A stretch of DNA of 64,000 nucleotides from Tropicibacter alexandrii (GTDB lineage: Bacteria; Pseudomonadota; Alphaproteobacteria; Rhodobacterales; Rhodobacteraceae), in NCBI RefSeq assembly GCF_003667315.2, contig NZ_RCTZ02000002.1:124001-188000 (forward strand), written 5' to 3'. Below are positions 2,838-61,420 of this stretch, piece by piece. Below the pieces are notes generated by a model. That model saw only the letters and a list, made by a program, of their open reading frames with translations, was not told the DNA's origin and did no database searches. Every line of letters starts with the position of its first letter. Position 1 is the first letter of the stretch. The position numbers and the translations under genes are program-made.

Positions 2838-3746
2838 TCACGCGTTGCCATCACGGAAGTCCAGACCCATCTCGGAATAGCGCTCGGCCTCTTCCAGCCA
2901 GTTCTCGCGCACCTTGACTTGCAGGAACAGGTGGACCTTGCGACCAAGGAATTCCGACAGTTCCTCGCGCGCCGCCTTGGACACGGCCTTGATCGTCTCG
3001 CCCTTCTTGCCAAGGATGATGCCCTTGTGGCCGTCGCGCGCGACATAGATCATCTGGTCGATCCGGGCGCTGCCATCCTTGCGCTCTTCCCAGGTCTCGG
3101 TCTCGACCGTCAGCTGGTAGGGCAATTCCTGATGCAGGCGCAGGGTCAGTTTCTCGCGGGTCATCTCGGCGGCGATCATGCGCAGCGGCAGGTCGGCGAT
3201 CTGGTCCTCGGGGTAGAGCCATGGGCTTTCGGGCATCTCGCCCGCCAGCCAGTGGCGCAGGTCGTCGACGCCCTTGCCCTTTTCCGCCGAGATCATGAAG
3301 GTCTTCACGAAGGGGAAGCGGTCGTTCAGATCCTTGGTCAGTGTCAGCAGGACGGGCACGTCGACGCGGTCGATCTTGTTGATCGCCAAGGCGATCTTGC
3401 GGCCCTGCGGCAGTTCCGACAGGCCTTCGAGAATACGCTCCACGCCTTCGGTGATGCCGCGATGCGCCTCGACCAGCAGGACGATCACATCGGCATCCGC
3501 CGCCCCGCCCCACGCGGCGGCGACCATGGCGCGATCCAGCCTGCGTTTCGGTTTGAACAGGCCCGGCGTGTCGACGAAGACCAGCTGGCTGTCGCCCTCC
3601 ATCGCGACGCCGCGAATGCGGGCGCGGGTGGTCTGGACCTTGTGCGTGACGATCGAGACCTTGGCCCCCACCATGCGGTTGGTGAGGGTGGATTTGCCTG
3701 CGTTGGGCTCTCCGATCAGGGCGATGAAACCGGCGCGTGTGGTCAT
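2838..3746 (-). CDS. era: GTPase Era
   Basis: A 302-residue Era GTPase, which binds the 3' end of 16S rRNA and acts in 30S assembly and cell-cycle control. The P-loop is GEPNAGKST (residues 12-20), G3 is DTPG and G4 is NKID. The C-terminal KH domain carries the IILGKKGETIKAV RNA-binding loop and ends with VKVRENWLEEAERYSEMGLDF, typical of Era. It belongs to the rnc-era neighbourhood, but an EamA transporter gene and a small ORF are inserted between rnc and era. All GTPase motifs are intact. Confidence 0.97.
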   Translation of the reverse strand: MTTRAGFIALIGEPNAGKSTLTNRMVGAKVSIVTHKVQTTRARIRGVAMEGDSQLVFVDTPGLFKPKRRLDRAMVAAAWGGAADADVIVLLVEAHRGITEGVERILEGLSELPQGRKIALAINKIDRVDVPVLLTLTKDLNDRFPFVKTFMISAEKGKGVDDLRHWLAGEMPESPWLYPEDQIADLPLRMIAAEMTREKLTLRLHQELPYQLTVETETWEERKDGSARIDQMIYVARDGHKGIILGKKGETIKAVSKAAREELSEFLGRKVHLFLQVKVRENWLEEAERYSEMGLDFRDGNA

Positions 3747-16917: not shown

Positions 16918-16943
16918 GTAGGATGGGTGATCACCCATCCTAC
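16918..16943. repeat. 26-bp palindrome family, copy 2 (perfect)
   Basis: A perfect palindrome of half-site GTAGGATGGGTGA. It lies between two convergent genes, and its CTAC end, read on the minus strand as GTAG, supplies the TAG stop codon of the PatB gene (16942-16940). Confidence 0.95.
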
Positions 16944-19247: not shown

Positions 19248-19741
19248 CCGTGCGCCCCTGTATTCCCTACCCGGACAAGCGGCTGAAAGCCGTGGCGCAG
19301 CCCGTCGAGGCGATCACCGACGAGATCCGCGCCATCTGGGCCGACATGATCGACACGATGGAGGCGATGCCCGGCGTGGGCCTCGCTGCCCCGCAGATCG
19401 GCGTCGGGCTGCGGCTGGCGGTGGTCGATGCCTCCGAGGGGCGTGGCGAGGCGATCCGCATGGCCAACCCGGAAGTGCTGCACGCCTCGGTGCAGTTTCG
19501 CGAGCACGAAGAGGCCAGCCCGAACCTGCCCGGCGTCTCGGCGGTGGTCAAACGCCCCCGCGCGGTGACGGTGCGCTATCTGGACGAGGCGGGCGCGGTG
19601 GTGGAAAAGGACCTTGTCGGGCTTTGGGCGACCTCGGTGCAACACCAGATCGACCACCTGAACGGCAAGCTCTACGTGGATCGGTTGAGCAAGGTCAAAC
19701 GGGACATGCTGCTGCGCAAGGCGGCGAAACTGCGGGGGTAG
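19244..19741 (+). CDS. Peptide deformylase-like paralogue 3, predicted inactive
   Basis: A 165-residue PDF-fold protein. Motif 1 [10 protein letters not shown] (residues 44-53) is intact, but motif 2 reads EEASPNLPG (residues 89-97), so the Cys metal ligand is gone, and motif 3 is QHQIDHLNG (133-141), so the catalytic Glu of HExxH is Gln. It keeps both His residues and a basic C-terminal tail ([19 protein letters not shown]) like that of def1. The frame is otherwise clean, suggesting selection for a non-catalytic role. Its TAG stop is part of a 26-bp palindrome. Confidence 0.87.
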
Positions 19742-19763
19742 GATGGGTGATCACCCATCCTAC
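19738..19763. repeat. 26-bp palindrome family, copy 3 (perfect)
   Basis: Perfect palindrome of half-site GTAGGATGGGTGA. Its TAG (19739-19741) is the stop codon of def3. It lies in the 46-base gap between def3 and fmt on the same strand. Confidence 0.95.
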
Positions 19764-23997: not shown

Positions 23998-24023
23998 GTA
24001 GGATGGGTGATCACCCATCCTAC
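23998..24023. repeat. 26-bp palindrome family, copy 4 (perfect)
   Basis: Perfect palindrome of half-site GTAGGATGGGTGA, starting at the base after the transglycosylase stop codon and lying 16 bases from the stop of the convergent adenine deaminase gene. TTT follows on the plus strand, so it could terminate both genes. Confidence 0.95.
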
Positions 24024-33985: not shown

Positions 33986-35509
33986 ATGACCCGCTATACC
34001 ACGGCCTCGGCCCTTGCCCTGATCGCGATGGCCGCCCCGGCCTTTGCAGATGTCACCCCGCAACAGGTCTGGGACGACCTGAAAGCCTATTACGGCGGCT
34101 TTGGCTACGAGGTGACCGCGACCGAAACCATGGATGGCGGTGATCTGGTCGTGTCCGACATGAACCTGACCGTGCCGGTGCCCGAAGAGGACACCACCAT
34201 CGCCATGACTTGGCCCGAGATGACCTTTGCCGACAATGGCGACGGGACGGTCAACCTGACCATGCCGGAAACCTCGACGATGACCGTGCTGATTTCCGAG
34301 GATGACGAGCAGGTTGGCGAAGTCGTCTTCGACCTGTCGATGCCGGGCCTGAGCATGCTGATCTCGGGCACGGCGACCTCGATGAATTACGACATGAGCG
34401 CCGACGAAATCGCCATGACCCTGTCGAAGCTGGTGACAGAGGGCGAGGAAATTCCCCGCGACATGATGCGCGCACAGGCGTCGATGGGGCCGATTTCGGG
34501 CACGATGTCGACGGCCAGCGGCGATGGCATGCGCTCGATCGCGCAGGAACTGACCTATGGCGACCTGACCTATGACATCGCCTTCAACGACCCCGACAGC
34601 GACGATGCGGGCATGTTCAAGGGCATGCTGAGCGGCCTGTCGATCTCGGGCACGGTGGAGATGCCGACCGACGTGGATTACGTAAACGATCCGCTGGCCT
34701 TCTTCACGCCAGACATGTTGATCGACCTCGTGATGGCCCATACAGGCGGCAATAGCGAGTTCTCGGTGACCGAGCGCCAAGGCACGACCAATGGCAAATT
34801 CTCGTCCACTGGCGGGGAATTCGGCTTTGCCATGTCCGCCGCCGACATGCTGTACGCGATTTCCGGGACGGGCCTGAGCGTCGATCTCAGCGGCCCCGAA
34901 CTGCCGCTGCCGGTCAGCGCGCAGATGGGCGAATTCGGGTTCTCGATCGAGATGCCGCTGGCGCAGGCCGATGCGCCGCAGGATGCGTCGCTGTCGGTTG
35001 TCCTGAGCGAGTTCACCATGGCGGACATGCTGTGGAACATCTTCGATCCGGCCAATGTCCTGCCGCGCGACCCCGCGACGGTTGCCGCGAATCTGAACGC
35101 CAAGGTCACGCCCTTCGTCGACCTGTTCGACGAAGAGGCGATGATGGAGATGGAGCGCAATGGCGGCATGCCGGGCGAGTTGAACGAACTGACGCTGACG
35201 GATTTCGTCGTGGACGTGGCCGGTGGCACCGTTCTGGGTGAGGGCGCGTTCACCTTCGACAATTCCGATCTTGAAAGCTTTGACGGGCTGCCGCGCCCCG
35301 AGGGTGAGCTGAACCTGAGCATTGCCGGTGCCAACGGGCTGATCGACAACCTGATCCAGATGGGTCTGGTGCAGGAGCAGGACGCGATGGGCGCACGCAT
35401 GATGCTGGGCATGTTCACGGTGCCGGGGTCCGAGCCCGATACCGCGACCTCGACCATCGTGGTCAACGAGCAGGGCCATGTTCTGGCCAATGGTCAGCGG
35501 ATCAAGTGA
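33986..35509 (+). CDS. DUF2125 exported protein
   Basis: A 507-residue exported protein: signal peptide MTRYTTASALALIAMAAPAFA, then long stretches of short beta-strand-like repeats rich in Thr, Ser, Asp and Met (for example DLVVSDMNLTVPVPEEDTTIAMTWPEMTF). This corresponds to DUF2125, an alphaproteobacterial family of periplasmic or outer-membrane-associated proteins with no known function. It is very acidic and Met-rich. ATG at 33986 follows GAAGAGG. A GGCGGGGC hairpin and a TTCGAA palindrome cluster follow the stop. Confidence 0.86.
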   Translation: MTRYTTASALALIAMAAPAFADVTPQQVWDDLKAYYGGFGYEVTATETMDGGDLVVSDMNLTVPVPEEDTTIAMTWPEMTFADNGDGTVNLTMPETSTMTVLISEDDEQVGEVVFDLSMPGLSMLISGTATSMNYDMSADEIAMTLSKLVTEGEEIPRDMMRAQASMGPISGTMSTASGDGMRSIAQELTYGDLTYDIAFNDPDSDDAGMFKGMLSGLSISGTVEMPTDVDYVNDPLAFFTPDMLIDLVMAHTGGNSEFSVTERQGTTNGKFSSTGGEFGFAMSAADMLYAISGTGLSVDLSGPELPLPVSAQMGEFGFSIEMPLAQADAPQDASLSVVLSEFTMADMLWNIFDPANVLPRDPATVAANLNAKVTPFVDLFDEEAMMEMERNGGMPGELNELTLTDFVVDVAGGTVLGEGAFTFDNSDLESFDGLPRPEGELNLSIAGANGLIDNLIQMGLVQEQDAMGARMMLGMFTVPGSEPDTATSTIVVNEQGHVLANGQRIK

Positions 35510-35557: not shown

Positions 35558-35652
35558 CAAGGCGCTTCGAAGCGCCTTGATCCAAGCGCCTTCGAAGGCG
35601 CTTGATACCGAAATTCGAATTTGCGTGGCTCAAGGCTTTTCGAAAAGCCTTG
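35558..35652. repeat. Tandem TTCGAA palindromes, cluster B (3 units plus a degenerate one)
   Basis: Perfect 22-bp units at 35558-35579 (half-site CAAGGCGCTTC), 35583-35604 (CAAGCGCCTTC) and 35631-35652 (CAAGGCTTTTC), and a shortened 12-bp AAATTCGAATTT at 35611-35622. The cluster lies between two convergent genes and ends in TTGCGCC, as clusters A and D do. Confidence 0.92.
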
Positions 35653-35679: not shown

Positions 35680-36432
35680 TTAGCTGCGCAGGGCGGGCAG
35701 GCCGACGCCGGTGGACTCGAACCCGCCATCGACCGCCACAACTTGCCCCGTGACATAAGACGCCTTTTCCGACGCAAGAAAGCAGATCACCTCGGCCAGT
35801 TCCCGTTCGGACCCGTAGCGGTTCAGCGGGATCGCGTCATGATAGGCGGCGATGATCTCGGGCGAATGGACGGCGATCGAGAGCTTGGTCTTGACCGGGC
35901 CGGGGGCCACGCAATTGACGCGGATACCGTATTCGCCCAGCTCGGCGGCGTGCTGTTTGGTCAGCTGGATCACGGCGGCCTTGGACGTGCCATAGGCGAC
36001 CCGCAGGGTCGAAGCGCGCAGGCCCGAGATCGACGCGATGTTGACGATGGCGCCCTTGGTTTCCTTCAGCGCGTCGGCAGCGGCTTGGGTGCAGAGAAAG
36101 ACACCGTCGAGATTCGTCTCCATCACTCGGCGCCACATCTCGAATGTGCAGTCCTGAACCGGGCCGAACTCGGCCACGCCGGCATTGTTGACGAGCGCGT
36201 CGATGCGGCCCGACCAGGCAAGCGTATCGCGCACCATGCCGTCGACATCTTGCGGGTTCGAGACATCGCGGATCAGCGGTGTGACGTTCTCACGCTCGGC
36301 CGCGACTTTGTTCAACTCCTCGGCGTCGCGGTCCAGCATGGCCACGCGCCAGCCCATTTCCAGAAACAGGTCGGTGGTGGCCAGACCGATGCCGCGCGCG
36401 GCGCCGGTCACGATTGCGCATTTGGTGTCCAT
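35680..36432 (-). CDS. SDR-family oxidoreductase (3-ketoacyl-ACP reductase-like)
   Basis: A 250-residue SDR with TGAARGIG (cofactor loop), LDRDAEE after strand 2 (an Asp typical of NAD preference), NNAGVAEFG, catalytic Ser in ASISG, and YGTSK. The C-terminal FLASEKASYVTGQVVAVDGGFESTGVG is typical of classical SDRs such as FabG-like or sugar/polyol dehydrogenases. The substrate is unknown. It is monocistronic, bounded by a TTCGAA cluster downstream and a type iii repeat upstream. Confidence 0.9.
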   Translation of the reverse strand: MDTKCAIVTGAARGIGLATTDLFLEMGWRVAMLDRDAEELNKVAAERENVTPLIRDVSNPQDVDGMVRDTLAWSGRIDALVNNAGVAEFGPVQDCTFEMWRRVMETNLDGVFLCTQAAADALKETKGAIVNIASISGLRASTLRVAYGTSKAAVIQLTKQHAAELGEYGIRVNCVAPGPVKTKLSIAVHSPEIIAAYHDAIPLNRYGSERELAEVICFLASEKASYVTGQVVAVDGGFESTGVGLPALRS

Positions 36433-44751: not shown

Positions 44752-44777
44752 GTAGGATGGGTGTGCACCCATCCTAC
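44752..44777. repeat. 26-bp palindrome family, copy 5 (TG centre)
   Basis: Arms GTAGGATGGGTG and CACCCATCCTAC are perfect, but the two central bases are TG instead of AT, so the full centre is no longer self-complementary. It lies between convergent lolA and the transglycosylase lipoprotein gene and is followed by TTT. Confidence 0.93.
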
Positions 44778-47071: not shown

Positions 47072-47097
47072 GTAGGATGGGTGATCACCCATCCTAC
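47072..47097. repeat. 26-bp palindrome family, copy 6 (perfect)
   Basis: Perfect palindrome of half-site GTAGGATGGGTGA, one base away from the TGA stop of the YcgN gene and 26 bases upstream of the threonine aldolase start, both on the minus strand. Confidence 0.95.
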
Positions 47098-55605: not shown

Positions 55606-55917
55606 GGGATGCGGGCCTCGTGGAAATTGCTTTGCGCAAGCTATGACACGGCTTGCGCGGGCTTCCAAGAATGCGATGTCCCGCAATTCCGGCAGACGAA
55701 GCGCCGGTTCGATCAAAGCGCCGTCCAAGGCCCTTCGAAGGGCCTTGAACAAGCGCTTTCGAAAGCGCTTGGACGCGCAGCGTCGAGGTGGTCTGGCTCA
55801 AGGCGCTTCGAAGCGCCTTGCCCCGCCCAGCCCGTCGCGTGACGCCTTGCTCTGGACCATTGCGCGCCAAACCCCTATCACCCAGCCCAAACCTGCCGTT
55901 CTCCTAAGGAAACCCGG
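55606..55917. other. 312-base gap between the glycosyltransferase gene and leuS
   Basis: This divergent gap holds promoters for both flanking genes in principle. Its central part (55726-55820) is a TTCGAA palindrome cluster; the 97 bases between the cluster and the leuS ATG include a TAAGGA ribosome-binding site. Nothing else is recognised. Confidence 0.5.
55726..55820. repeat. Tandem TTCGAA palindromes, cluster C (3 units)
   Basis: Perfect 22-bp units at 55726-55747 (half-site CAAGGCCCTTC), 55750-55771 (CAAGCGCTTTC) and 55799-55820 (CAAGGCGCTTC). A GACGC/GCGTC hairpin lies between the second and third. Unlike the other clusters, this one is in a divergent promoter region, upstream of leuS. 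Confidence 0.92.
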
Positions 55918-58569: not shown

Positions 58570-59053
58570 CCGACGAACCTTTCTCGTGAGCCTCGCAGCC
58601 CTTGGCGGCTGCGGGTTTACCCCGGTCTACGGGCCGGAGGGGGCCGGGACGGCCTTGCAAGGCGCGATCCGCCTGCGCGCGCCCGATGGCCCGGGCGCCT
58701 ACCGGTTCAACCAGCGTTTTGAGGAACGTCTGGGGCGTTCAACGTCGCCGACCTATGAGATGGCGGTGAACCTGTCGGTCAAGCAGGTTGGCATGGGCTC
58801 GACCTCGGCCGGGTCGACGACACGGTTTCGTGTCGACGGCACGGCGGATGTGGCCCTGACCCTGATTGCAACAGGAGAGCCGGTGCTGCGGGAAACGATC
58901 ACTGCGTTCACCGGCTATTCGACGACCGGCAACACCGCGGCCACCTTGGCGGCGGAACGCGATGCCGGGGCGCGGCTGATGGTGATCCTTGCGGATCAGA
59001 CCGTCGACCGGCTGTTGCTGAACGCCGACCGGCTGGCTCAGGCGGCCCGGTGA
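58556..59053 (+). CDS. lptE: LPS-assembly lipoprotein LptE
   Basis: A 165-residue outer-membrane lipoprotein: signal [18 protein letters not shown] with lipobox Cys19 and [12 protein letters not shown] directly after, the usual LptE start. It plugs the LptD barrel and helps insert lipopolysaccharide into the outer membrane. The mature domain has strand-rich segments [16 protein letters not shown] and [22 protein letters not shown]. Its start lies inside the leuS end and its stop overlaps holA (GTGA), the conserved leuS-lptE-holA order of proteobacteria, which strongly supports the call. Confidence 0.93.
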
Positions 59054-60075
59054 AATTCTCTGTCCGCGATGTGAACGGCTTTTGCGCGCGCCCCGATGCC
59101 GGGGTGGCGGGTATCCTGCTGTATGGCGAGGACACGATGCGCGTTGCGCTCAAGCGGCAGGAACTGGTGGCCAACATTGTCGGTCCCGAAGGCGAATCGG
59201 AAATGCGCCTGACGCGCATTCCCGGTGCGGATCTGCGCAGCGATCCGGCGCAATTGCTGGATGCGGTCAAGGCGGTGGGCTTCTTTCCCGGGCCGCGCGC
59301 GGTGCTGGTCGAAGAGGCGGGCGACGCGACCGCCAAGGCCTTTGGCGCGGCGCTGAAGGACTGGCGCCCGGGGGATGCACAGATCGTGGTGACGGCGGGT
59401 GCGCTGAAAAAGACCTCGGCCCTGCGCAAGCTGTTCGAAGCCGCCCCCAATGCCGCCGCCGGGGCGTTGTTCAACGAACCGATGGGCCGGGCCGAGATCG
59501 AGACTGAACTGAAGCGCGCCGGTCTGGGGCAGATCGACCGCGAGGCGATGGGCGCGCTGGAGGAACTGGCCCGCGCCCTGACGCCGGGGGATTTTCGCCA
59601 GACGCTGGAGAAGGTCGCGCTGTACAAACTGGGTGATGATGCGCCGCTGACGCCGGATGAGGTGGAGTTGAACGCGCCCGCCTCGGTCGAGGCGGAGATC
59701 GACGAGATCTTCCATGTGCTGGCCGAAGGGCGCACGGCAGAGATCGCGCCGGTCATGGCCCGGCTGAGCGCGCAGGGGGTGACGCCGGTCACGCTGCTGA
59801 TCATGGGCGCGCGGCATTTCCGGGTGCTATACGCGATTGCCTCGGCGCAGGGTGGCCCGTCTCAGGGCATCCAGCGGGTGCGCCCGCCGCTGTTCGGGCC
59901 GCGCCGCGACCGGATGTTGCGGCAGGCGCAGGGCTGGTCGGTGACGCGGCTGGAAGACGCGCTGGGGGTCTTCATGGAGACCGACCTGACCTTGCGCTCC
60001 GCCGGTCAGAAGGCACCGGCCGAGGCGCTGGTCGAGCGGGCCTTTGTCCGGCTGGCCTACATGGCGCGGCGCTGA
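59050..60075 (+). CDS. holA: DNA polymerase III delta subunit
   Basis: A 341-residue clamp-loader delta subunit, which opens the beta clamp. The N-terminal region is [39 protein letters not shown] with a degenerate P-loop as expected for delta, and the central and C-terminal helical domains include LRKLFEAAPNAAAGALFNEP, LTPGDFRQTLEKVALYKLGD and PLFGPRRDRMLRQAQGW. GTG start at 59050 overlaps the lptE stop. A TTCGAA palindrome cluster follows its stop and separates it from convergent DUF1244. Confidence 0.94.
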   Translation: MKFSVRDVNGFCARPDAGVAGILLYGEDTMRVALKRQELVANIVGPEGESEMRLTRIPGADLRSDPAQLLDAVKAVGFFPGPRAVLVEEAGDATAKAFGAALKDWRPGDAQIVVTAGALKKTSALRKLFEAAPNAAAGALFNEPMGRAEIETELKRAGLGQIDREAMGALEELARALTPGDFRQTLEKVALYKLGDDAPLTPDEVELNAPASVEAEIDEIFHVLAEGRTAEIAPVMARLSAQGVTPVTLLIMGARHFRVLYAIASAQGGPSQGIQRVRPPLFGPRRDRMLRQAQGWSVTRLEDALGVFMETDLTLRSAGQKAPAEALVERAFVRLAYMARR

Positions 60076-60087
60076 GGTCTGGGCGGG

Positions 60088-60181
60088 CAAGGCCCTTCGA
60101 AGGGCCTTGGATCAAGCGCTTTGCAAAGCGCTTATACACGTCTTCGAAGACGTGTGGGTCAAGGCGCTTCGAAGCGCCTTG
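60088..60181. repeat. Tandem TTCGAA palindromes, cluster D (4 units, one with TTGCAA centre)
   Basis: Units at 60088-60109 (half-site CAAGGCCCTTC), 60113-60134 (CAAGCGCTTTG, centre TTTGCAAA instead of TTTCGAAA, and final G changed to A), 60136-60155 (20 bp, ACACGTCTTC) and 60160-60181 (CAAGGCGCTTC). The cluster lies between convergent holA and DUF1244 and ends in TTGCGCC. Confidence 0.92.
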
Positions 60182-60195
60182 CGCCGGAATTGACC

Positions 60196-60510
60196 TCACG
60201 ACTTGTCGGTGACGTTTTCCTTGAACGCAACCTCGAAGGCGGCCTGTTTCTCTGGGCTGGCCTCGGCTTGGTTCTGCGCCTTCCAGTCGTCATAGGGCAT
60301 GCCGTAATAGATCTCGCGCGCTTCGTCCTTGGACATCTCGACGCCGCGTTCATTGGCGGCCTCCTGATACCAGCGCGACAGGCAGTTGCGGCAGAACCCG
60401 GCCATGTTCATAAGGTCGATATTCTGCACGTCCGCGCGGTCTTCCATCAGGTGCTGGCGCAGGCGGCGAAAGGCGGCGGCCTCGATTTCCAGGCGGGTTT
60501 GATCGTCCAT
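60196..60510 (-). CDS. DUF1244 family protein
   Basis: A 104-residue protein beginning MDDQTRLEIEAAAFRRLRQHL, with the DUF1244 core NIDLMNMAGFCRNCLSRWYQEAANERG and MSKDEAREIYYGMPYDDWKAQNQ. The CxxC motif suggests possible metal binding; the function is unknown. GGAGAGA precedes the ATG. It lies 18 bases downstream of the N-formylglutamate amidohydrolase gene and is probably co-transcribed. Confidence 0.87.
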   Translation of the reverse strand: MDDQTRLEIEAAAFRRLRQHLMEDRADVQNIDLMNMAGFCRNCLSRWYQEAANERGVEMSKDEAREIYYGMPYDDWKAQNQAEASPEKQAAFEVAFKENVTDKS

Positions 60511-60528: not shown

Positions 60529-61266
60529 TCAATCGGCGACCCGGGCCAGCGCCTGCTCCAGCATCGGGGCGAGCCTTTCGCCCCAATGCGCCTGCGATGG
60601 CGCGTCCGCGATCAGGTCGTTGCGTATCTCGATAAGTGTGTTGTTGCGGCCATGGCGCAAGGCGTGGCGGTCGATCGCGTCGCCGGGCAGGTGGCCGGGA
60701 TAGGGCTCGTTCCGGCCGACGGTGATGTCCGGCTCGGCGTCCAGAAGCGCGATCAGCGGATCGGACAGCCGCGCATCCCAGGCGTGCAGGACACCGACAT
60801 GCCACGGACGGGTGGGGCGCCCGCGCAATTGTCGCGTAAAGGAGTGGATCGAGACGAGAACCGTATCGTCGTGCCGCGCCGCCAGCCGTTCCAGCGCCGC
60901 ATGGTAGGGGCGGTGATAGGCGTCGAGGCGGCGCTCGCGCTCTTCGGCACCGGCGTTGCGGTTGCCGGGAATGATCGACCCGTCATAGAGCTTCATCAGC
61001 AGGGTGGGGTCGTCCTCGCCGCGGTTCGGGTCGATGACGAGCCGCGAAAAGTCCGACCAGACCAGCGGCGCGTCCAGCGCCTCGGCCAGTGCGCGGGCCA
61101 CACCCAGCGCGCCGACATCATAGGCGATATGGCGGGCCATGTCGGCATCGGGCAAGCCAAGCGTGCCGCCGAGATCCTCCGGGACGGTGTTGGTGGCGTG
61201 GTCGCAGGTTATCAGAAACCGCGCTTTGCGGGTTTCGCCTTCGATGTGGTATGGGGAATATGTCAT
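60529..61266 (-). CDS. N-formylglutamate amidohydrolase family protein
   Basis: A 245-residue protein of the FGase family. The conserved blocks are FLITCDHATNTVPEDLG, DMARHIAYDVGALGVARALAEALDAPLVWSDFSRLVIDPNRG, VLVSIHSFTRQLRG (metal-binding His) and IEIRNDLIA. It may cleave N-formylglutamate in histidine breakdown or act on a related N-acyl acid; no hut genes are adjacent. It is divergent from pyk, sharing a 189-base control region with a probable LacI-type operator and a palindrome. Confidence 0.87.
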   Translation of the reverse strand: MTYSPYHIEGETRKARFLITCDHATNTVPEDLGGTLGLPDADMARHIAYDVGALGVARALAEALDAPLVWSDFSRLVIDPNRGEDDPTLLMKLYDGSIIPGNRNAGAEERERRLDAYHRPYHAALERLAARHDDTVLVSIHSFTRQLRGRPTRPWHVGVLHAWDARLSDPLIALLDAEPDITVGRNEPYPGHLPGDAIDRHALRHGRNNTLIEIRNDLIADAPSQAHWGERLAPMLEQALARVAD

Positions 61267-61394: not shown

Positions 61395-61420
61395 GTAGGA
61401 TGGGTTCGAACCCATCCTAC
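61395..61420. repeat. 26-bp palindrome family, copy 7 (TTCGAA centre)
   Basis: Perfect 26-bp palindrome with half-site GTAGGATGGGTTC; the centre is TTCGAA where other copies have TGATCA. It lies in the divergent gap 35 bases before pyk. Confidence 0.95.

Follow-up and report, generated by a model that had tools for sequence, protein, structure and literature searches.

A family of dispersed hairpin arrays in Tropicibacter alexandrii and its relatives, and a small protein with which it is associated

What keeps the two arms of a palindrome complementary when the bases of those arms change from one copy to the next? This question is raised by four clusters of 22-bp palindromes in a stretch of 64 000 nucleotides from the genome of Tropicibacter alexandrii (the whole stretch is referred to below as the window, and the genome, a 5.04 Mb draft that is 99.96% complete, as G000). 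The original prediction described them as tandem units with fixed CAAG and CTTG feet, a fixed TTCGAA centre and covarying arms, and proposed selection either on a folded structure or on dyad recognition. All four clusters were recovered in place (Table 1): the exact pattern CAAGN4TTCGAAN4CTTG occurs ten times in the window with complementary arms in ten out of ten, and when up to three mismatches are allowed there are 16 sites, compared with a mean of 1.80 in shuffled sequence. The description as clusters of tandem units needed amendment, in that B, C and D each prove to be one four-hairpin composite of which the third hairpin had been missed (it is degenerate in C); the count of units had also passed over the imperfect second hairpin of D, and A is a two-hairpin form. 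A search of the 64-kb window against Rfam at the gathering score gave no matches.

Table 1. Hairpins of the four arrays, numbered from the first nucleotide of the window.
Feature	Position	Arm or sequence	Basis or nearby stop codon
Array A (two-hairpin form), hairpin 1	2780–2801	CAAGCGCGTTCGAACGCGCTTG	exact pattern
Array A, hairpin 2	2802–2823	CAAGGCCCTTCGAAGGGCCTTG	14 nt from stop of gene 2838–3746 (−)
Array B, hairpin 1	35558–35579	arm GGCGC	exact pattern
Array B, hairpin 2	35583–35604	arm GCGCC	exact pattern
Array B, hairpin 3	35607–35626	20 bp, ACGC-foot type, two mismatches	sequence and alignment
Array B, hairpin 4	35631–35652	arm GGCTT	exact pattern
Array C, hairpin 1	55726–55747	arm GGCCC	exact pattern
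Array C, hairpin 2	55750–55771	arm GCGCT	exact pattern
Array C, place of hairpin 3	55772–55798	degenerate, GACGC-GCA-GCGTC left	sequence and alignment
Array C, hairpin 4	55799–55820	arm GGCGC	exact pattern
Array D, hairpin 1	60088–60109	arm GGCCC	12 nt past stop of gene 59050–60075 (+)
Array D, hairpin 2	60113–60134	CAAGCGCTTTGCAAAGCGCTTA, TTGCAA centre, foot mismatch	found at three mismatches
Array D, hairpin 3	60136–60155	ACACGTCTTCGAAGACGTGT, perfect	sequence pattern search
Array D, hairpin 4	60160–60181	arm GGCGC	14 nt from stop of gene 60196–60510 (−)

The high frequency expected of the pattern over the genome was borne out: a scan in which feet and centre were fixed and the arms left free found 121 exact sites in G000 and none of a reversed control pattern. 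The array typically consists of four tandem hairpins of 22, 22, 20 and 22 bp, which are separated by about 3, 2 and 4 nt and of which the third has an ACGC/GCGT foot, and this is the form of three of the four window clusters (B, C and D). A scan for strict hairpins located 60 places in G000, with four hairpins at 26, three at 19, two at eight and one at seven (that is, 53 places with at least two). Eight G000 copies, array B among them (100.9 bits for the whole array), were used to build a covariance model, which gave at least 115 strand-matches in a search in which 150 of 1082 candidates were scored and weak copies may have been missed. The centre is less rigid than proposed, as the loops TTGCAA, TTGGAA and TTCCAA also occur with stems intact, the last two being non-palindromic. 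The TTGCGCC end common to A, B and D is only a piece of a loose flank consensus, GSGKG ahead of the first CAAG and CMCSC past the last CTTG. An outer closing stem between the G-rich left and C-rich right flanks is unsupported in both the G000 and the named-genome sets, because flanks of the same copy are no more complementary than those of different copies (longest complementary run 3.51, compared with 3.73 after shuffling, and no covariation). When arrays B, C and D are folded as RNA, the two outer hairpins (1 and 4) are predicted to pair with each other, so that four separate hairpins are not the sole possible fold. Our best explanation, held as a whole with about even confidence, takes the clusters to be dispersed copies of a hairpin-array element, mostly of two to four tandem palindromic hairpins.

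Arm complementarity extends well beyond the window. Among 114 distinct sites in fetched G000 loci the arms are fully complementary at 112, compared with a mean of 21.6 when the right arms were dealt out among the sites. Named genomes were scanned for pairs of adjacent hairpins, again with fixed feet and centre and free arms, which yielded at least 101 loci (from a sample that overlaps the 295-genome family sample described below in some genomes; covariation was analysed on all 101, placement and the sharing of places on 80), and here 174 of 178 sites have complementary arms as against 9.4 after shuffling, with 44 different arm words represented. Stems thus stay paired while arms, feet and loops differ between copies and between genera. 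Neighbouring hairpins (centres no more than 30 nt apart) never share their arms, the counts in three sets being 0/116 (10.4 expected), 0/136 (13.0) and 0/29 (1.5); the same result would be expected if all arrays descended from one master array, or if identical neighbours were lost by deletion between them. Hairpins that lie farther apart can be identical: at three loci of one genome, G035 (L016, L019 and L020), identical palindrome pairs CAAGCGGTTTCGAAACCGCTTG are found about 90–106 bp apart, and the sequences that they enclose are unrelated, which sets them off from the four-hairpin arrays.

The arrays are placed at the 3′ ends of genes, as judged against codon-usage gene calls made in this analysis, with a median distance of 10–15 nt between array and stop codon. 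Fifty-five of the 60 G000 arrays lie outside called genes (22 in convergent, 29 in tandem and 4 in divergent gaps, the other five overlapping a called gene), whereas all gaps of at least 30 bp in the same loci, those with arrays included, number 38, 118 and 40 respectively. Array B, for example, lies between the convergent genes 33986–35509 (+) and 35680–36432 (−), and array C is in one of the few divergent gaps that hold an array. In the convergent gaps of G000 the array comes within 15 nt of the stop codon on 35 of 44 gene sides; in the tandem gaps the median distance is 15 nt to the upstream stop compared with 81 nt to the next start, and 23 of 29 arrays are nearer the stop. The 80 named-genome loci (of at least 101) behave alike, with 39 of 60 convergent gene sides within 15 nt, 36 of 41 tandem arrays nearer the stop, and tandem medians of 14 nt to the stop and 69 nt to the start. 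Arrays L132:4974–5018 (in a record labelled as a Rhodobacteraceae MAG) and L168:3607–3672 (in one labelled Ruegeria) fall within a called coding region of about 1950 bp. It should also be mentioned that the window carries a second palindrome, GTAGGATGGGTGATCACCCATCCTAC or a version of it with another centre, at 16918–16943, 19738–19763, 23998–24023, 44752–44777, 47072–47097 and 61395–61420; five of these six copies overlap or lie within 9 nt of a called gene 3′ end, and the corresponding pattern GTAGGATGGGTNANCACCCATCCTAC, searched with its arms fixed, has 94 exact sites in G000.

Within the family (295 genomes, one per genus) the CAAG pattern is present in 37 genomes, in from 1 to 121 copies. 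Among the matches listed from the named genomes, loci carry the labels Roseovarius, Marivita, Pseudoponticoccus, Histidinibacterium, Psychromarinibacter, Aestuariivita and Rhodosalinus or further names of Rhodobacteraceae type, some come from MAGs named just Alphaproteobacteria, and one has an actinobacterial label. The last is a typical two-hairpin array in a record of Enemella evansiae (L105:3313–3356), for which assembly contamination is possible. The two-hairpin pattern was absent from viral contigs, and no array DNA was found in plasmids.

One gene stands apart from all others that carry an array. It lies outside the window, encodes 76 amino acids, and is the sole G000 array gene with an array-bearing counterpart among the 80 named-genome loci; in four genera the array begins 0–8 nt from its stop codon. 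No other conserved insertion place between genera was retained, a looser first comparison having suggested more. The protein is matched in 120 of the 290 genomes (of the 295) in which it was sought, and its distribution follows that of the repeat: 31 genomes have both protein and CAAG sites, 6 sites only, 89 the protein only and 164 neither (p 3e-8). Of the six with sites only, G007 was covered by the protein search and some of the other five may lie outside it. All 24 genomes with at least three CAAG sites have the protein (p 1.4e-10), as do 7 of 13 with one or two sites, and CAAG sites are present in 13 of the 14 genomes with the closest protein copies. The link is strong, although these tests treat genera as independent and are not corrected for phylogeny. 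In a sample of the class the protein was found in 4 of 385 genomes, three of the same family and one of another. None of 61 pattern matches in viral contigs could be confirmed, phages gave none, and plasmids gave one record.

The association is also physical. Among 31 distinct protein loci, which are the best-scoring matches only, 25 have two or more stems (at least 8 bp, within 127 nt of the stop), compared with 181 of 867 control gene ends taken from loci that had themselves been picked for arrays; the first stem begins within 15 nt past the stop in 21 of the 31, and six have fewer than two strict stems. An array is present at one of four further protein loci and absent from the other three, and the copy of the gene in the congener G295 carries a doublet. 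The covariance model, although built from dispersed G000 copies, finds arrays at 23 of 36 protein loci, 12 of them at 60 bits or more, and the best such home array reaches 90 bits with all 95 positions matched. The home arrays are thus of one kind with the dispersed copies. The home array holds its four-hairpin order across genera; at L199 (genome G277, the same sequence as L172) the array behind the 76-aa gene is extended to five hairpins and spans about 150 bp. A start motif of what we take to be trpB lies within 900 nt downstream of the gene in 21 of the 31 loci and a presumed trpF upstream in 9 of 31, these names having come from recognition of the sequences and then of the motif and not from a family search.

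Protein and repeat can each be divided into two types, and the types match. The protein is of either KR type (GG[VI][VIL]KR) or RR type, labels assigned after the sequences had been seen, and the elements have either CAAG or CAAA feet. Fifteen of 16 KR-type genomes have more CAAG than CAAA sites (G002 is the exception; G116, a tie at 0, was left out) and 11 of 14 RR-type genomes have more CAAA than CAAG (exceptions G070, G208 and G092; two ties at 0 left out), giving p 9e-5 for the match, although several RR-type genomes rest on a single CAAA site, G294 has 4 against 2 in the control, some genomes hold extra copies of the gene, and base composition, which was not controlled for, may contribute to the contrast. 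The loop in G294 is odd-sized, 3 nt on a stem of 9. Between congeners the difference is sharp: G000 (KR) has 121 CAAG and 20 CAAA sites, and G295, with one RR-type copy and the only congener compared, has 1 and 67. Across 18 genomes that lack the protein, only seven occurrences of the CAAA pattern were counted, and none of the five places listed is palindromic. Where one of two neighbouring hairpins has a non-palindromic loop, a rule of order (TTGGAA if it is the first, TTCCAA if the second) holds in 18 of 18 CAAG-type two-hairpin units (L105–L176), but is not general because the CAAA doublets of G121 (C12:406260 and C34:209433) and the home array L215 break it. Across genera, both the presence of the dispersed copies and their sequence type go with the 76-aa protein. 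REP sequences and their RAYT genes correspond by type in the same manner.

Searches for the family of the protein were largely negative. An alignment of 27 members (leaving out L211, which has an internal stop, L214, L221, L225 and L226, which have longer or divergent ends, and duplicates) gave best E values of 0.005 and 0.0099 against Pfam and NCBIfam, to unrelated models matched by one or two members each; two members had no match in PHROGs or PADLOC, and the 76-aa protein had no credible match among PDB sequences. Matches to viral capsid domains (PDB E 0.0055, Pfam E 0.005) were taken as chance. AlphaFold2 with five sequences gave a model of mean pLDDT 82 and pTM 0.69 with the order helix-helix-strand-helix-helix-strand-strand, for which Foldseek returned nothing under E 0.39. 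With an earlier, weaker model (pLDDT 76) the best VIA-align score was Z 5.5 for an R3H domain (rmsd 3.9 over 71 residues), and SepF-like proteins score similarly, a resemblance that may reflect just a common arrangement. A HicA-like or dsRBD-like partner, our first guess from sequence, gets no support from the model, and a winged helix, which the succession of secondary-structure elements had suggested, was unconfirmed (ArsR-type winged helices appear in Foldseek just at E 0.75 or above). The G000 protein has 12 Lys/Arg and 8 Asp/Glu by count, and it is because of this basic charge together with the link to the arrays that we infer nucleic-acid binding.

Among known systems the closest are the REP/REPIN elements and their RAYT transposases, in which gene type and repeat type match (PMC3116915, in the sections drawn on here). 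The arrays resemble them in being extragenic palindromes (in the 20–40 bp size range) of high copy number, patchy between relatives, paired or clustered, and in having a putative dedicated gene with copies beside it and a gene type that matches the repeat type; the preference for unlike neighbours recalls the ‘heterodimers’ of passages in PMC3733652. They differ in having CAAG/CTTG feet with GSGKG outside them in place of a GTAG or CGTC tag, a four-hairpin unit, a home array on the 3′ side, and a 76-aa partner of no known family. The original prediction had envisaged a co-occurring partner that might be RAYT-like: a partner was found, but it is not of this kind, and PF01797 (Y1/HUH tyrosine transposase, RAYT) had no match in G000 at E 0.001 in a search that found matches in 5 of 14 control genomes. 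A RAYT is thereby ruled out as partner in G000, and the claim that no transposase lies near the copies holds for this, the sole family looked for, over the whole genome. With no Y1 transposase and no GTAG or CGTC tag, two defining features of REP/RAYT systems are lacking. According to PMC3733652 the alphaproteobacterial CGTC-tagged REPs also lack a dedicated transposase, and the preference for unlike neighbours is left unexplained in the part of that paper considered, two points with a bearing on the present case; the present arrays differ from those REPs in the tag and in having a candidate partner gene. Stem-loops in 3′ UTRs are described for Br-REP1 and Br-REP2 of Bradyrhizobium and for E. 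coli REPs in portions of PMC5082802, which cites the latter for termination and for protection of mRNA against 3′–5′ decay and, where they lie within 15 nt of a stop codon, for ribosome stalling and trans-translation. The array–stop distances found here are similar to those of the E. coli REPs described there, the likeness being one of description and not of compared sequences, and those portions name no partner protein. The main text of PMC3733652 contains no occurrence of Rhodobacter, Roseobacter, Ruegeria or Paracoccus, the available part of PMC12306157 none of Rhodobacter, Roseo-, Rhodobacteraceae, Paracoccus or CAAG, and no paper in the open-licence PMC literature was recognised as describing such arrays, although they may be in print elsewhere. 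Taken together, the arrays and the 76-aa gene point to an undescribed partner system that resembles known bacterial repeat families yet lies outside them.

The most likely reading, to which we give about as much belief as doubt, is that the arrays form a REP-like family whose dedicated partner would bind the hairpins and whose site of action would be the 3′ end of transcripts, function and mobility both being inferred. The small basic protein would bind the folded hairpins and would regulate its own message through the home array as a 3′ UTR control, and the dispersed arrays would act at the 3′ ends of other transcripts. Being symmetric, they could serve both of two convergent genes as stops for termination or processing or as barriers to exonucleases, and where an array lies no more than 15 nt from a stop codon it may also hold back ribosomes at termination, as described for E. 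coli REPs. Template switching would keep the arms perfect, with selection acting as well on feet, loop and pairing, and new copies would arise by some dispersal route. A more novel reading, which we put forward tentatively and somewhat short of even confidence, is that of a system in two parts, hardly met with to date outside the family to which the window belongs: a structure-specific 76-aa hairpin binder controlling itself through the four-hairpin array, and dispersed arrays that are either its regulon or its mobile offspring, with shape and a few foot and loop bases recognised and the stems left to drift by template switching.

It is unlikely, though the idea has real weight, that the arrays are instead selfish miniature elements, non-autonomous passengers mobilised by the 76-aa protein as an analogue of RAYT, their 3′ position reflecting target preference and purging and not a benefit to the host. 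The abrupt change between congeners (121 against 1 CAAG sites, 20 against 67 CAAA) is what such elements would show, as is the match of gene type and repeat type known from REP and RAYT (PMC3116915, same sections). Places are little shared: only one of 67 G000 genes with a 3′ array has an array-bearing counterpart among the 80 named loci (of at least 101), and 6 of 220 other genes match such a gene (cut-off at least 50% identity over 70% of the length). Array B is missing from G295, where both genes of the pair are present with 67 bp between the aligned parts, a gap that contains a terminator-like GC hairpin followed by a T run; this would fit mobility, but there is no clean insertion joint, and no target duplication was seen. 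For arrays C and D no clean empty site can be read in G295 because far more sequence separates the aligned parts there (1089 and 1614 bases). A CAAA-type doublet in G295 (L238:1441–1490) lies beside the counterpart of gene 60196–60510, by its coordinates in the gap toward gene 60529–61266, a gap of only 18 bp in G000. Against mobilisation by the protein, 76 residues with no known catalytic family make it unlikely to be a transposase by itself, and the home locus is mostly in the same place (the trpB-like motif in 21 of 31 loci) with its four-hairpin order held across genera.

The seven home arrays behind the 76-aa gene of seven genomes bear on another question, whether the arms covary through selection at all. 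These arrays (93–95 nt, with the top model scores among 23 matching loci, the similar-scoring L208 being left out) align over 96 columns, and in the four-hairpin structure 97.9% of 241 cells are paired and 22 of 35 pairs show two-sided change. None of 500 shuffles was as high on any value of pairing or change, and slid structures were 26–48% paired. As the structure was read off the same sequences and the best full-length arrays were picked, pairing is favoured in these figures, and the point lies in the kinds of change: there are 33 two-sided cell changes and no one-sided (G.U) change, the remaining departures being unpaired cells. RNA stems under selection normally tolerate G.U. The same scarcity is seen in mismatch counts of hairpins with at least 7 of 9 pairs from arrays holding at least one perfect hairpin: 171 hairpins in sense-strand arrays of tandem genes have 18 mismatches, 16 of them at the foot pair, including 1 G.U and 2 A.C in all, and 65 hairpins of home arrays have 13, 12 at the foot pair, with 2 G.U and 3 A.C. 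It should be noted that the search that located the dispersed arrays relied on near-perfect hairpins, which biases their mismatch counts downwards. Selection on an RNA fold alone is weakened by the missing G.U in both sets. The absence of G.U and of one-sided changes fits copying of one arm onto the other at the DNA level at least as well as RNA-level selection, and suggests that the arms may be maintained by template switching, either alongside RNA selection or instead of it. According to PMC8794818 (in the passages considered), this process both gives rise to perfect stems and repairs them. The selection on a fold that was proposed originally keeps its observation, stems that stay paired across copies and genera, but is not the only reading of the covariation, which DNA-level copying fits at least as well.

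It is nevertheless improbable that template switching is the whole story, with palindromes kept identical in their arms by mutation and with neither selection for folding nor function in the repeats. Such an artefact accounts for the 33:0 ratio, for the lack of any G.U excess and, from the same passages of PMC8794818, for perfect stems that are made and repaired. It leaves unexplained the fixed feet and loop, the four-hairpin layout with its 3-2-4 linkers, the high copy number, the placement at stop codons and the link to one protein.

More improbable again, and already weakened, is the notion that these are ordinary bidirectional intrinsic terminators made alike by genus-wide sequence bias. 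Like rho-independent terminators the arrays present a hairpin soon after the stop codon and could work in both directions between convergent genes; of the 22 convergent gaps of G000, 15 have both stops no more than 15 nt from the array (12 of 30 in the 80 named-genome loci, of at least 101), which leaves little room for a further terminator, and the gap that replaces array B in G295 has, as described, a GC hairpin and then a T run. The arrays differ in lacking a T tract behind the stem, as the 3′ flank is 53–79% C at positions 1–5 in 53 G000 arrays, and tandem four-hairpin arrays in fixed order, a recurring family that has its own partner gene, and a contrast of 121 with 1 sites in two congeners would not be expected of terminators. 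Least probable of all, despite the perfect two-fold symmetry of most hairpins and their fixed feet and centre, is the dyad-recognition alternative of the original prediction, in which a nucleoid or regulatory protein reads duplex DNA, because non-palindromic loops (TTGGAA, TTCCAA) or odd-sized ones (as in G294) coexist with stems that are still paired, and a dyad reader would have no need of complementary variable arms.

The 33:0 ratio of two-sided to one-sided changes, found at one kind of site, provides a sharp and countable signal with which to ask whether DNA copying, and not just RNA selection, lies behind the perfect covariation of such stems. In the passages of PMC3733652 considered here, an entire class of palindromic repeats has no partner to its name. 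For another such class a candidate partner that is not a RAYT can now be named, from co-occurrence, physical linkage and matched subtypes, and this makes testable the question of how repeats without a transposase of their own spread or persist.
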